DNA of 64,000 nucleotides from an uncultured Gammaproteobacteria bacterium (GTDB taxonomy: Bacteria; Pseudomonadota; Gammaproteobacteria; Arenicellales; JAANXG01), in contig CAMYKK010000003.1 in assembly GCA_947258975.1 (NCBI GenBank), positions 150,503 through 214,502 on the forward strand. The letters run 5' to 3'. The notes under the pieces are model-generated. The model had not been told where the DNA came from. It made no database searches and saw only the letters and a list, made by a program, of their open reading frames with translations. Shown in pieces: positions 5,547-48,270 of the stretch. Positions within the stretch are counted from its first letter, which is position 1; every line of letters begins with the position of its first letter. The translations under genes and the position numbers were made by a program.

Positions 5547-5933
5547 GGTATCCTCCTTCTGGAGGAGAGCCCTACACTGCACCAAGCTTTCTGGATGACC
5601 GCACGGGTAGCGCGCGTTGACACCGCGCTGTAGCGACATCTATAGCCGTAGCTATGGATTGAGCGAATCACGAGTCGGGGTGTTCGAGATCGTGCGGACG
5701 CCGGGGTAGTCCGGCCTCTATTCGCGGTCTGCACCGGAAAGACGCACGGCGTGTCGTATAAGATCGGAAACATTCGATTCTCCAGGTTGCTTGGACGGAT
5801 TAGGGGTGGACCATCTTGGGCGATTTGTGGACTGGGATCTTCCGCGCACTCAGGATTCGTATTTATACCGACATTGATCGTGCGTGCAAGCTCTCAAAAA
5901 CAACGCCGTCCTCGGCCCTGATGTTGACGGCAA

Positions 5934-6012
5934 GTTTTACGCCAAGAATCCCGGAAGCTAGCGAAAAGACTTGTCCTGCGCGTAGTCGCAGGATCGGTTG
6001 GTGAGGACGCCG
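5934..6012 (+). repeat. Dispersed repeat, copy A
   Basis: GCCAAGAATCCCGGAAGCTAGCGAAAAGACTTGTCCTGCGCGTAGTCGCAGGATCGGTTGG, close to copies at 25.2, 42.8 and (minus) 20.0 kb. Confidence 0.8.
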
Positions 6013-6206
6013 TGCCCGTGTGTTGTGACGTCACGACCCATAATCCGCGGCGAAGCTTATCAGCTCATGGGATGGAACTGAAATGACCGCTGCAATGTTT
6101 GCCGCTGCGGGTACAATGCTGTGTGCGGTTACTCTGTGCCCTCGTCCGGCCTTTGGTATCGGCAAGGTCTCAATGGCTCGCGGGGCGACTTGGTGCGATG
6201 CACAGG

Positions 6207-15293: not shown

Positions 15294-15385
15294 CCCGTAC
15301 CACGCACCGGCTCGTCGTGTGCATAAGGCCGGACTATCCGGCCCCTACCCAGCCGGCGGTTTCCATCATGAATGTGTGCGCATGA

Positions 15386-15590
15386 GGGCTTGTCCTCGCA
15401 AAGCAGAGGGCTTGTCCTCGCAAAGCAGAGGGCTTGTCCTCGCGCAGCAGAGGGCTTGTCCTCGCACTGCGCTTGTCCCCGCACAGCAGGGGAACTACGC
15501 GCAGCACAAGCGCAGCGGAGGGCTTGTCCTCGCGTAGCGGAGGGCTTGTCCTCGCACTGCGACTACGCGCAGCACAAGCGCAGCACAGGC
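15386..15590. repeat. Tandem/nested array of a ~22-bp unit GGGCTTGTCCTCGCAAAGCAGA
   Basis: Three contiguous 22-bp units followed by variants and blocks of CTACGCGCAGCACAAGCGCAGC. Confidence 0.9.
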
Positions 15591-15689
15591 GGTGTTCCGC
15601 CTCAGGCTGATAACAGCACATGTTAATGGCTGATTAGGCCCAGATTTTCCCCCGGATCTTTAAACATTGTCTTTAAGTGTGCGGTATCG

Positions 15690-19990: not shown

Positions 19991-20072
19991 CGCCGGACCC
20001 TGCGACTATCGGCGGTGCAAGTCTCTTCGCCAGCTTCCGGACTCCTTGGTGCAATATCCGGGCGAAGTCCGA
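19991..20072 (-). repeat. Dispersed repeat, copy D
   Basis: Reverse complement reads CGGATATTGCACCAAGGAGTCCGGAAGCTGGCGAAGAGACTTGCACCGCCGATAGTCGCAGGGTCCGG. Confidence 0.75.
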
Positions 20073-23841: not shown

Positions 23842-24400
23842 GTCTCGACCCCTACTCGGTCGGTTAAGCAAATCATCTAAGAAGGCAAGAGTTCTCGGTA
23901 TCCAACCGCATCGCGGTGACCCCGCTGAGGACCCGTTCAACCGCTCACGAGGCGATCCACTGGTAGATCCCGCTCGCTGGCGGCAGCGTCCTTCGCGGCC
24001 GTTGGCCTGTCGACCTGTCGACCCGCTACCGCTATGGTATCCGCTTTTCGGCAGGGATCGCCAGGCTTGTGGATCATGCGCGGCCGTATTGAGCACTTGC
24101 CCCACCGCATTGAGCGGCCGGGGCTCGTCAAAGGTGTAAGTCTCTCTTACACTGCAAGCCCGACTAAAAACCGGCATATTGCAACAAGATTGGGAAAAAT
24201 GGGGTAACGGCGTGTTTGCGAGAATGGCTTCGATAATCGTTAGATGCCCGTGTCGTACCCGAGGTCTGGACAATTCCAGTTCCGGCTGGGCCGTGACCGC
24301 GCGGATGCACGCTTCACTGTGCAGATGAATCAGGATCAGAATCGTCGGCTCGGCCGCCCGTTGTTCATCCCTCCAGCGCCGCCTCCTGCCGCCGTTATTC

Positions 24401-24428
24401 GGGATCCTTGGTGCAATGCGCGGGCTAA
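24401..24428 (-). repeat. Partial dispersed repeat, copy F (left part only)
   Basis: GGGATCCTTGGTGCAATGCGCGGGCTAA resembles the left part of copy D in the same orientation. Confidence 0.55.
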
Positions 24429-24464: not shown

Positions 24465-25400
24465 GTGGGGACAGATATCGTGGCGAAATCTAAACGCCGG
24501 CGTCGCGGCCCCGGTCGCTTGATTTTGAAACTCGTAAGCGTCGTTGTTCTTCTGTCCGTGTCTGTTGTGTGGGTGCTGCGCTGGTATCCGCCACTGACGT
24601 CCGCCTTTATGCTGCGAAGCCAGTATTTTTCCGATAACGGCGGTACCCGGATTGCGCATCGTTGGGCTCCTTGGGAGCGTATTTCGCCCCTTGTGGCGCT
24701 CGCCGTGATTGCCGCCGAAGACCAAAAGTTTCCGCGGCATTGGGGTTTTGATCTCCAGCAAATTAGAAACGCCGTTCGAGAGAACAAGCATCGAAGCCAT
24801 GCCCGCGGGGCCAGTACGATAACTCAGCAAGTCGCCAAGAACTTGTTCCTATGGCCCGGCCGCAGCTACGTGCGCAAGGGGTTGGAGGTGTATTTCACGG
24901 TCGTGCTCGAATTGCTGTGGTCAAAGCAACGCATTCTCGAGGTCTATTTGAACATTGCCGAATTCGCACCCGGCGTATTTGGTGTGGCGGCGGCGAGCAC
25001 GCGTTACTTCGCAAAATCAACAGAGAGTTTGGATGCTGATGACGCTGCGTTGTTGGCTGCGGTACTGCCAAATCCGCGACGGCTCAAGCTTAGCCGGCCT
25101 ACCCCGTACTTGCGTACCCGGGCGCAGTGGATACGCCGGCAGATGGACCAACTCGGCGGCGTGAGATACTTGGATAGCCTCGCCGGCATGTCGGGCCACG
25201 GATTCCGGATGGTGGCAATGGGAGAGGCGCCCAGCCGGGGTATTGCGCCAAGGATTGCGGAGGCTGGCGAAGAGACTTGTCCTGCGTGTAGTCGCAGGGT
25301 CTGTTGGAAAGAACGCCGCGCTGGAACGAGACCCATAGTTGGCTATGAGTCGAGTGAAGGCCAAGCGCTGATGGACGAGAGCCGGCCGGGGCCGGGATAG
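24465..25400 (+). CDS. mtgA: Monofunctional biosynthetic peptidoglycan transglycosylase with atypical C-terminal extension
   Basis: [59 protein letters not shown]51 motifs. GTG at 24480 is an alternative start. Confidence 0.88.
25232..25320 (+). repeat. Dispersed repeat, copy B (inside mtgA 3' end)
   Basis: AGCCGGGGTATTGCGCCAAGGATTGCGGAGGCTGGCGAAGAGACTTGTCCTGCGTGTAGTCGCAGGGTCTGTTGGAAAGAACGCCGC. Confidence 0.85.
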
Positions 25401-25511
25401 GCGTGACCGTCGTAAACCTGTGTCGTAAACTTTGGCGCAATGCCTCGCATGCTGACGCGGGCTCTGCGTGCCTGAAGTTGCGCATTAATCAATACCGGCC
25501 CGGGGCCGGAA

Positions 25512-32123: not shown

Positions 32124-32298
32124 AGTGGACTGCCCGCATCTTGCGCCGGGGCCGGGACTGCCGCGCGTCTATTTTTGCCAAGCAACAATGAGCATCGAAC
32201 GTCTCTATTTGACAGCAGTGACGTTGCGGATCTCTCCAGCGCATACCATGCATCGACACGGCGCCCCTGGGGACAATATGCTTCCCGATATCGCCCCG

Positions 32299-40778: not shown

Positions 40779-42788
40779 ATGTCGTTCGAAGCATTGATTC
40801 CAACTCTTCTTGGCGTAGGCGGGTTGTTCGCAGCATACAAGATCTTCCAAATGGTCCTGGAATACGACCCGGGTAGCGGTAAAGTCATTGAGATAGGTGA
40901 AGCCATACATAAAGGTGCGATGGTGTTCATGCGCCGCGAATACAAGGTACTGGCGATTTTCTCGGCAGTGGTGATCGTCCTCATTCTATTCTCGCCGCTG
41001 GGTTGGCGCACCGCGTTCGCGTTCATCGTCGGAGCGCTGTGTTCGGCGGGCGCAGGTTATATCGGCATGTACACCGCCACCCAGGCAAACGTACGCACCA
41101 CGACCGCCGCCCATGACAAGGGTGCCCCGGAGGCATTGACGGTGGCTTTCTTCGGGGGCTCCATCATGGGGCTCACGGTTGCGGCCATGGGACTGTTTGG
41201 ATTGGGGCTGCTCTATTTGTTTTTCGGCGGCGACCCACACACCGCTCACGTGATCCATGGGTTTGGCATGGGGGCCTCCTCGGTGGCGCTGTTCTCGCGT
41301 GTCGGCGGCGGTATTTTTACCAAGAGCGCCGACGTGGGCGCGGATCTCGTGGGTAAGGTGGAAGCGGGGATCCCCGAGGACGACCCACGCAACCCCGGGG
41401 TTATAGCCGACAATGTGGGAGACAACGTGGGAGACGTAGCCGGCATGGGATCGGACATTTTTGAGTCCTACTGCGGCGCCATGATCGCCACCATAGCCAT
41501 TGCCTCGACGATGGGTACGGCGGATTTGGAGTTGGTCGGACCGCAATCGACATTGATGTTTCTGCCATTGATGATGGCCTCGGTAGGCTTATTGTGTTCC
41601 ATCGGCGGGATCTATCTGGTACGGCGATATTCAAGCAAGTCACCGGAAGTCGCTTTGCGCATCGGCACCGTGGGTGCATCGGTGTTGTTTATCGTCGCCG
41701 CGTTTTTGGTGATCGCCGTTTCCGATGCCAGCATGCGGGTGTGGGTTTCGGTGCTGGTGGGGGCCATCGGCGGCATTATTATCGGTCTGGTCACCGAGTA
41801 TTACACCGCCGGTCCTCCGGTTCGCAAAATAGCCGAGGGCGGAGAAACCGGCCCGGCCACGGTGATGATTGCCGGTATCGCCACCGGTATGGAATCGGTC
41901 GTCGTGCCGTTGCTGTCACTCAGCGCCATTATTCTCATCTCGAGTCAGCTCTCGGGGCTTTACGGAGTCGGCATCGCCGCAGTGGGCATGCTCGCCACGG
42001 TCGGCATCACCATGGCCATCGATGCCTATGGGCCGGTGGCGGACAATGCCGGCGGTATCGCTGAGATGGCCGGCTTGGGCGAGGACACGCGTAAGATCAC
42101 CGATTCGTTGGACGAACTCGGCAATACCACCGCCGCTATCGGCAAGGGATTCGCCATCGGCGCCGCGGCGCTGGCGGCGCTGGCCATCATTACCGCCTAC
42201 ATCGCGGTGGTGTCGAACCGGATCGCGGATTTCAGCCTGCAAATCAATAACCCCTGGGTGCTTGCCGGTATGTTCATCGGCGGAATCTTTCCGTTTCTGG
42301 TCGGTAGTATGACGATGAAAGCGGTGGGCGACGCCGCGTTCGACATGATCAAAGAAATTCGTCGACAATTTAGGGAGATCCCCGGGTTGCTGGAAGGTGA
42401 GGCGCAACCGGACAACGAGCGTTGTATAGAGATCGCCACCGATGCCGCACTCAAGCGGATGGTGCCGCCTGGGGTGCTGGCGGTATCCGCTCCGGTGGTG
42501 GTTGGTTTCGTCCTCGGCCCCGAATCCTTGGGCGGTATGCTCGCGGGCGCACTGCTTGGTTGCGTACTATTAGCCCTTACCATGGCGAATGCAGGCGGGG
42601 CGTGGGATAACGCCAAGAAATATGTGGAGCGCGGAAATCTGGGCGGCAAAGGATCCGATACCCACAAAGCGACGGTGGTCGGCGATACGGTCGGCGATCC
42701 ATTCAAAGATACGTCGGGACCGTCAATGAACATCTTGATCAATGTAATGGCGATCGTGAGCCTGGTTATCGCACCGTTGCTCGGTTAG
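40779..42788 (+). CDS. hppA: Membrane-bound proton/sodium-translocating pyrophosphatase
   Basis: [80 protein letters not shown]. Confidence 0.96.
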
Positions 42789-42850
42789 TACGAAGGATCC
42801 CGGAAATCGGCGAAGAGGCCTGCGCTGCGCGTAGTCGCAGGGTCGGGCGT
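42789..42850 (+). repeat. Dispersed repeat, copy C (abuts hppA stop)
   Basis: GAAGGATCCCGGAAATCGGCGAAGAGGCCTGCGCTGCGCGTAGTCGCAGGGTCGGGCGT. Confidence 0.75.
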
Positions 42851-42958
42851 GCGCGCGGCGCTGTGGGTCTGCTCGGCGCGCAGCCATGTATAGAGGGACA
42901 CGGGGCGCTGGTAGCCTCGATCAGGGTAACGGCACGTGCGGCGCCGGCAATATGCGGT

Positions 42959-43159
42959 TTAGCCGATAGATCCGAATCGTGTGCCCGCCTCGAATCCGAA
43001 AATCGAACCTAGATCAAGATCTTTGATGAGCTTGTCAACCGCTGCCTGACCGTGTTCCCGGTGCACTTCGGCCAAGATCAAACGCGCCGAGTTGCGGTTG
43101 TAAAAACCGCCAAAATCGGCTTGCACCTGTAACAATTCGTAGGCCTTATCGAGGGTCAT
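42959..43159 (-). CDS. Small conserved-looking hypothetical protein
   Basis: MTLDKAYELLQVQADFGGFYNRNSARLILAEVHREHGQAAVDKLIKDLDL; compact 66-aa ORF downstream of pfp on the same strand. Confidence 0.6.
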   Translation of the reverse strand: MTLDKAYELLQVQADFGGFYNRNSARLILAEVHREHGQAAVDKLIKDLDLGSIFGFEAGTRFGSIG

Positions 43160-44952: not shown

Positions 44953-45130
44953 CTGCAAGCGTTGTGGATATCAAAGCTGTTGGTGCCGGGATAGGGGACA
45001 TTGATAGATTTCTGGTTTTGGACCATTGCGGCCCGGCCGGATTGCAAGCATTGTGGACGCCAAAGCGGTTGGTGCCGGGAACGGGTGCGTTTATAGTTCT
45101 CCGGTCTTGGCACTTTGCGCACCGCGTGGA
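44953..45130. repeat. Two-unit 89-bp imperfect direct tandem repeat
   Basis: Units 44953-45041 and 45042-45130 align end to end without gaps, sharing TGCAAGC(G/A)TTGTGGA...AAAGC(T/G)GTTGGTGCCGGGA. Confidence 0.85.
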
Positions 45131-45144
45131 TAATGAGACGATAA

Positions 45145-46233: not shown

Positions 46234-46629
46234 ATGTCTAAGGGAAAACCGACGCCAACCGACATCACGCTCCACCAGCAATCACGGGTGCTGGAGATCG
46301 AATTCGACGACGGCAGCCAGTTTGAATTGCCCTGTGAGTATTTGCGTGTCTACTCGCCGTCTGCGGAAGTTCGTGGGCACGGTCCGGGACAGGAAGTACT
46401 GCAGATCGGCAAAGAGAAGGTCAATATTGCGGCTGTCGAGCCGGTCGGCGCCTACGCGGTCATGCTGCGTTTCGACGACGGACACGATACCGGAATATTT
46501 TCTTGGGAGACCCTGTATGAACTGGGGGCAAATCGCAAGGCGTACTGGGCGGATTACCTCCAGCGTTTGGCTGATGCCGGTCACCACAGGGAGTCCCAGG
46601 CCTATGACGAGAAGATGAGCGGTGACTGA
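46234..46629 (+). CDS. DUF971 family protein
   Basis: [31 protein letters not shown]...[19 protein letters not shown]. Confidence 0.88.
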
Positions 46630-47380
46630 GCCGGATCGCGACAACACCACCCATTTCGGTTTTCGGGATGTGCTGGAGAAGGACAAGCCACGCCTGGTTG
46701 CCGAGGTCTTCCGTTCGGTCGCCGATAAATACGACTTAATGAACGATCTGATGTCGTTCGGTGTGCATCGAGCCTGGAAGCAATTTGCCGTCGGCTTGAG
46801 CCATGTTCGATCCGGACATCAAGTGTTGGATGTCGCCGCCGGCAGTGGCGATCTCGCGGGCAGATTTGCCCGGTTGGTGGGCAGTTCGGGGATGGTCGTG
46901 TCTACCGACATCAGCGAGGCGATGTTGCAACGTGGACGCAAGCGCCTCACCGACGTTGGCATCGTCGGCAATGTGTTGTATGTCCAGGCGGATGCCGAGT
47001 ACCTGCCGTTTCGTGACAATTTGTTTCACTGTGTCAGCATCGGATTTGGATTGCGCAACGTGACGCACCAGCAAGTTGCGTTGCAGTCTATGTATCGGTG
47101 CTTACGACCAGGAGGCCGGGTACTCGTCCTTGAGTTTTCCCGGCCTACTACAAAATGGCTGCGCAAAGTCTATGACCTGTATTCGTTCAATCTGTTACCC
47201 CAAGTGGGGCGGCTCGTGGTCGGCGACAAAGCCAGTTATCAATATTTAGTCGAGTCGATTCGCAAACAACCGGCTCAGGCCGAATTACAGTCAATGATGG
47301 AAACGGCCGGGTTCGAACGCGTCGCCTATCATAACCTGAGCGGGGGAATTGTCGCGGTGCACACTGGCTATAAGTTCTGA
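46622..47380 (+). CDS. ubiE: Ubiquinone/menaquinone biosynthesis methyltransferase UbiE
   Basis: [47 protein letters not shown]. Confidence 0.96.
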
Positions 47381-47614
47381 TTCGACATAAACCGGAAACC
47401 TAACCTGCATATTGCCTCAAGGCAGCGACAGGAGGATCAAACAGTTTGTTCGTGATGAAGCAATCGATCAACATCCGGTGCCCCGGTTTGGTGCCGGATG
47501 CTGGACTTAGTCCGGTACCGGGTTGTTCGCCAACGCCTGGGTTTGTGCTTCGCGCAATCCACAGCTACCGCTCCGCATATCATTCCGACGCGACGTCGAG
47601 CCGCGTCATCACTC

Positions 47615-47642
47615 GAGATCCTTGGTGGGATATACCGGCTAA
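47615..47642 (-). repeat. Partial dispersed repeat, copy E (left part)
   Basis: GAGATCCTTGGTGGGATATACCGGCTAA, similar to copies D and F. Confidence 0.45.
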
Positions 47643-47673: not shown

Positions 47674-48270
47674 ATGATTACCAATTTACTTGCGTCCATC
47701 GGGAGTCGATTTCTGCGTCTGGATCCGGACGCGCTTCAGCGACTCCAGGAGTTCGAGGGAAAGCTCATCTGCCTGGAACTCGCGGGCATTGACAGGAAAC
47801 TGTATTTGTCTGCCGGTGAAACCGGCATTGTGATTCGCGAGGTTTCGGAACACGAACCCGACGTTACGTTGACGGGTTCGCCCATCTCCTTCGCCGAACT
47901 AGGACTGCGGGGCTTGAACGTGACGCTGTTTCGAGAAGGCAAAATGAAGATTAGCGGCGACATCGAGTTAGGCCAAAAAGTGCAGCGATTTATCGAGGAA
48001 GTGGACATCGACTGGGAGGAGGTTCTGTCGCGGTACATCGGTGATCTAGCCGCGCATCAGACTGGGAATCTGTTTCGTGGACTCAACAATTGGCGGCTAA
48101 ACGCGCATCAAACCGCGGAACGAAACGTCTCCGAATTCCTTCAAGAAGAGGTCCGCCTGCTTGCCTCGGCGTCGAGTGTGGCCCGATTTTCGAATGCGGT
48201 GGATGATTTGCGCTCTACGGTGGACCGGCTAGAACAACGGGTGCAACGGCTGCAAGCGCGCTTGTCATGA
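47674..48270 (+). CDS. ubiJ: UbiJ, SCP2-domain ubiquinone biosynthesis factor
   Basis: SCP2-like N-terminus, C-terminal coiled coil, position between ubiE and ubiB. Confidence 0.9.
   Translation: MITNLLASIGSRFLRLDPDALQRLQEFEGKLICLELAGIDRKLYLSAGETGIVIREVSEHEPDVTLTGSPISFAELGLRGLNVTLFREGKMKISGDIELGQKVQRFIEEVDIDWEEVLSRYIGDLAAHQTGNLFRGLNNWRLNAHQTAERNVSEFLQEEVRLLASASSVARFSNAVDDLRSTVDRLEQRVQRLQARLS

Follow-up and report, generated by a model that had tools for sequence, protein, structure and literature searches.

The window analysed here is a stretch of 64,000 nucleotides (contig 3, positions 150503-214502) from the genome of an uncultured gammaproteobacterium, which was searched as 5.49 Mb in 214 contigs. 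Apart from protein-coding genes, among them a transglycosylase (mtgA-like) ORF, an H+-pyrophosphatase gene and ubiE, it contains a dispersed repeat, referred to below as a MITE for the reasons given later. A search of the window with a profile of complete units detected eight copies, mostly intergenic. They are listed here together with the target-site duplication of the best-preserved copy and a related tandem array.

5573-5819, plus strand: old full-length copy just upstream of copy A (profile match of 82.3 bits, E 4.6e-25)
5934-6015 (profile 5935-6015), plus strand: copy A, left half of the MITE, with a degenerate terminal repeat and the core hairpin module
15380-15600, no strand assigned: 22-24 bp units in tandem, akin to the core hairpin module and without MITE ends
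19992-20065 (profile 19992-20063), minus strand: copy D, left end only, with the terminal repeat TTCG followed by CCCGGATATTGCACCAAGGA, a broken hairpin and no recognised right part
24170-24427, minus strand: degenerate full-length copy
25233-25448 (profile 25233-25424), plus strand: copy B, a MITE of almost full length, located where the transglycosylase (mtgA-like) ORF 24465-25400 has its 3′ end
32143-32285 (profile 32143-32263), plus strand: right half of a MITE copy, found as a profile match
42783-42963 (profile 42790-42852), plus strand: copy C, a shortened MITE that follows the H+-pyrophosphatase gene immediately downstream, with the right end GCAATATGCGG followed by TTTAG
47400-47403, plus strand: target-site duplication CTAA, left copy, flanking the 47404-47638 element
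47404-47638 (profile match 47401-47641), minus strand: best-preserved copy, a MITE complete at 235 bp, in which both inverted ends are present and the core hairpin module is absent
47639-47642, plus strand: target-site duplication CTAA, right copy, flanking the same element

The initial annotation had described four copies of about 80 bases, A (5934-6015, plus), B (25233, plus), C (42783, plus) and D (about 20065, minus), and all four are there, at a chance expectation of zero in 100 shuffles. The palindrome CTGCG-NGTAGT-CGCAG is, as described, kept in A, B and C and broken in D. These copies are mostly left ends and cover the left third of a unit that measures about 270 bp. The two "partial copies" reported at 24.4 and 47.6 kb do exist, but each is the left end of a complete element on the minus strand (24170-24427 and 47401-47641, respectively). 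The copies at 5573-5819 (plus) and 32143-32263 (plus) had been overlooked, as had the right-hand part of each element. The proposed genome-wide dispersal was borne out: one copy used as a BLASTN query matched 41-44 places in the 5.49 Mb, the terminal repeat with up to 3 mismatches gave 60 matches versus 0 for its reversed control, and 147 places matched, at E<=0.01, a left-end model based on sequence alone. At copy B, the mtgA-like ORF runs on into the repeat, and thus its final 50-odd codons seem to be MITE-derived.

The anatomy of the element was examined in 60 complete units drawn from the window genome and its relatives, which measured 102-374 bp with a mode near 267-269 bp. Each is bounded by inverted repeats, CCCGNATATTGCACCAAGG, lying inside a duplicated 4-bp YTAR site, so that the unit reads YTAR, CCCGNATATTGCACCAAGGATCCCGG, the interior, GCGCCTTGGTGCAATATNCGGG and YTAR. 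The ends are 19 bp long and in inverted order, and in most units one tip is AAGGA (left) and the other AAGGC (right). When genome copies were aligned, the similarity started sharply at YTAR followed by CCCGNATATTGCACCAAGGA, and intact units stopped at the inverted counterpart, GCCTTGGTGCAATATNCGGG followed by YTAR. YTAR flanks were found on the left of 43 and on the right of 41 of the 60 units (about seven in ten), CTAG being the commonest. The two flanking tetramers matched exactly in 19/60 units versus 10.3 expected after the flanks had been re-paired or shuffled (p 0.001); for the four bases beyond them this was so in 1/60. The YTAR flanks and the excess of exact matches, with unmatched outer bases, thus identify target-site duplications; the initial annotation had suggested looking for these, and they are present at 4 bp. 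Many window-genome copies have unmatched flanks, as expected of old copies.

The earlier statement that no annotated gene explains the repeat was upheld. The interior is without evident coding. Its description as "REP/MITE-like" stands for the MITE-like part and not for the REP-like part, given that the unit measures about 270 bp, has inverted ends of 19 bp and duplicates 4 bp of its target. Five features of a MITE were found: a short non-coding unit (below about 600 bp), terminal inverted repeats, a target duplication, a high dispersed copy number and presence/absence polymorphism.

The polymorphism was observed at the 47404-47638 element, which sits between ubiE (46622-47380) and an SCP2-domain gene (47674-48270) that is probably ubiJ, judging from its position. 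Four congeners lack the element at this site, with a flank-to-flank gap of 21 bp in G002 and G004, 50 bp in G005 and 57 bp in G001, and their alignment continues across the target (ACTTATAATG and similar). The empty orthologous site in four congeners marks this copy as a recent insertion, which on the simplest reading occurred in the lineage of the window.

The search for a transposase, a RAYT or another, which had also been suggested initially, had a divided outcome: the three RAYT-type Y1 genes of the genome are not flanked by the repeat, but IS1380-family transposase genes with nearly the same ends were detected in relatives. Genes of this family (PF13701; NCBIfam NF033539 equivalog, 403-405 bits) are present in the host and in relatives of the same order, and in the relatives they have the following terminal repeats.

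G001, intact gene: YTAR followed by CCCGGATATTGCACGA
G032: CCCGGATATTTCACCA
G017: CCCGGATAATTCACCA
G040, three copies: CCCGCATATGTCACCA, with the flanks TTAG/TTAG, CTAG/CTAG and CTAG/CTAG

The MITE end agrees with the IS1380 ends of these four genomes at 14-15 of 16 positions (13 for the other G032 end), the CCAAGG tip not being shared; as a control, ORF-sized placements made at random in the window reached at most 10/14 at both ends. The host's own intact IS1380 (C102:7219-8577; L118) has CTAG followed by CCTGGATTTCTCACCG at both ends and agrees with the MITE end at 11/16. The host also carries a second MITE set, whose ends, CCCGCATTTCTCACCAGG, agree with the host IS1380 at 13/16 and whose interior is common to the first set. 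Members of this second set in the window's own genome are L023, L030, L175, L192, L197, L199 and L202.

Since the ends are alike and the target and its duplication are the same, IS1380 is the best-supported mover. The repeat is thus very probably the left end of an IS1380-type non-autonomous DNA transposon (MITE). Its ends, its target duplication, its dispersal and one insertion against an empty site are established, while its movement by IS1380 transposases, and in trans, is inferred. On this reading, both inverted ends would be bound by a DDE transposase of the IS1380 family, provided in trans, which would mobilise the unit; insertion into YTAR tetramers, mostly CTAG, would then duplicate the 4 bp. 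Of the 109 genomes searched in the order, none held an IS1380 gene framed by the exact CCAAGG tip, and no autonomous copy with exact ends turned up in the end-rich genomes of the class either. Moreover, no IS1380 gene above the cut-off was found in the end-rich genomes G002 (123 ends), G007 (77 ends) and G231 (303 ends in a single contig). In these genomes the partner may thus have been lost, may belong to another family or may be hidden by gaps in the assembly, the last being unlikely for G231. Weak PF13701 matches in G231 (L302-L306) were rejected, as they resemble another DDE element and carry no MITE ends.

The interior of the MITE is modular, with the hairpin CTTGTNCTGCGCGTAGTCGCAG, the palindrome AACCCATAGCCGGCTATGGGTT and further palindromes that are gained or lost among copies. 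The core hairpin of the initial annotation is missing from the complete copies L042, L077 and window 47404, and its stem showed no compensatory change, covariation not being above that of shuffles, and no consensus pair in RNAalifold. The hairpin 22-mer has 94 genome matches, often in tandem at 24-bp spacing, and the window array at 15.38-15.60 kb has one such unit among related ones. Being absent from some copies, without compensatory change and with arrays of its own, the hairpin is a module of the interior that a copy may or may not have, and it does not define the element. The tandem hairpin arrays, of 22-24 bp units, occur in CTTGTGCTGCGCGTAGTCGCAGTG and GCTTGTCCTCGCGCAGCAGAGG variants, the 94 genome-wide matches being those of the first; in G000 they lie at C16:10296-10461, C37:59345-59619, C22:31982-32075 and C5:20585-20654. 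In other copies a palindrome of the form GGGGTCGGAGTC...GACTCCGACCCC replaces the second internal palindrome, and in the window's own genome L008, L041, L052 and L022 have it at this site together with a loss of interior. The hairpin arrays and the swapped GGGGTCGGAGTC palindromes indicate that the interior is a mosaic of separately repeated palindromic modules. Perhaps, though we put this forward tentatively and consider it somewhat less likely than otherwise, one non-coding interior was captured by two IS1380 end sets (TTGCACCAAGG and TTTCTCACCAGG) and serves as an exchange or landing platform for palindromic modules such as the 24-bp hairpin arrays and GGGGTCGGAGTC; this would be a modular, end-swapping MITE system with interiors that outlive their transposases.

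Another mover has to be weighed. IS5 and IS701 are also attributed a YTAR preference, and one of these DDE families may have moved the MITE, its likeness to IS1380 ends then being convergent or merely ancestral; G231 has 303 ends and no IS1380. We consider this unlikely, as the MITE ends agree with those of IS1380 base by base, the flanking YTAR included, and there are two MITE sets that are similar to two types of IS1380 end. A quite different origin, as a short palindromic repeat of the REP/BIME type that a RAYT (Y1) transposase has spread, would account for the core hairpin, the high copy number and the mostly intergenic copies of the window. The genome does have three Y1 transposases, and the hairpin module, which contains GTAG and exists as 24-bp tandem arrays, may itself be REP-like. 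But the whole unit of about 270 bp has long inverted ends and target duplications, features that REPs lack, the hairpin is absent from L042, L077 and window 47404 and shows no compensatory change, and all three Y1 loci (3/3) are without MITE ends or hairpin, two of them carrying GGGGTCAGACCCC-type palindromes instead. Given these other palindromes at the Y1 genes, an optional hairpin without compensatory changes and its separate arrays, a REP/RAYT origin of the element was rejected as highly improbable, in favour of an IS1380-driven MITE. The Y1_Tnp (RAYT-type) genes at L205 and L206 in the window's own genome are adjoined by GGGGTCAGACCCC and AAAGGGGTCAGCACCC palindromes.

A conserved RNA element or regulatory leader, with a functional hairpin under selection, is the least probable reading, with hardly any chance of being correct. 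Full copies do fold stably as single strands (z -5.3 and -4.0), but the outer stem of the fold is formed by the terminal inverted repeats and the core stem is without covariation. Copies also lie in both orientations relative to genes, and one locus differs in presence or absence between congeners. Selection on RNA structure in the core stem was rejected, RNAalifold giving no consensus pair and covariation not going beyond shuffles.

The end of the IS1380-type MITE, with up to 1 mismatch, was found in 10 to 136 copies in 4/5 other members of the window's genus and in one copy in the fifth. Four other members of the family had 77, 18, 1 and 1 copies, and one genome from another family of the order had 11. 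Across the class it was sporadic (8/369 genomes), and the reversed control had no match in any genome of the survey. In the elements elsewhere in the class the ends are the same and the sequence just inside them differs. This patchy distribution suggests horizontal spread. G231 (a single contig of 3.0 Mb, from another family of the class; L288, L293) has 303 terminal-repeat copies, including a pair in direct order at a distance of 176 bp.

Bacterial MITEs are already a known kind of mobile DNA, so the element is not new in principle, its unusual side being the mosaic interior. MITEPye1, for example, is a bacterial MITE with IS1182-type ends and 1-3 copies per chromosome (PMC11578231). The present element is likewise short and without a transposase, with terminal inverted repeats, target duplications and ends like those of an IS family, but its ends are of IS1380 type, its copies are far more numerous and its modular interior is common to two end types. 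With IS1380 itself (NF033539 / PF13701; G001, G032, G040 and the host) it shares the terminal repeat YTAR followed by CCCGSATATTKCACCA and the 4-bp YTAR duplication, but it has no transposase gene, its tip is CCAAGG rather than CGA/CCAA and it measures about 270 bp rather than about 1.6-1.8 kb. In IS1247 the duplications are given as 5 bp (PMC3281130). REPs are defined by a GT(A/G)G head and a short palindrome as the whole unit (PMC2817692); abundant short palindromes and the GTAG inside the core hairpin module are a likeness to this system (PMC2817692), from which the element differs in its long inverted ends and target duplication, and no RAYT was found carrying it. The piggyBac superfamily has been studied with IS1380 as outgroup (PMC10813416). 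The element resembles piggyBac in its 4-bp TA-centred target and in the DDE transposase related to IS1380, while piggyBac is eukaryotic and strict for TTAA.

In the open-access literature searched, which our search covered in part, we found no earlier description of an IS1380-derived MITE, and the terminal sequence itself was not found in the open-access literature searched; the MITE family with IS1380-type ends thus appears to be previously undescribed within that coverage. The IS1380 family, whose mobilisation of resistance genes (ISEcp1) is better known, thereby gains a large and apparently undescribed MITE set whose ends are clear and for which there are a target rule and an empty site. 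This set also accounts for many intergenic repeats of this lineage that would otherwise be mistaken for REPs or RNA elements. That G231 has 303 ends while no IS1380 gene is recognisable in it raises the question of the way in which such MITEs spread and persist beyond their transposase. Elsewhere in the window, at 44954-45131, 89-bp units form a tandem pair and are 74% identical.
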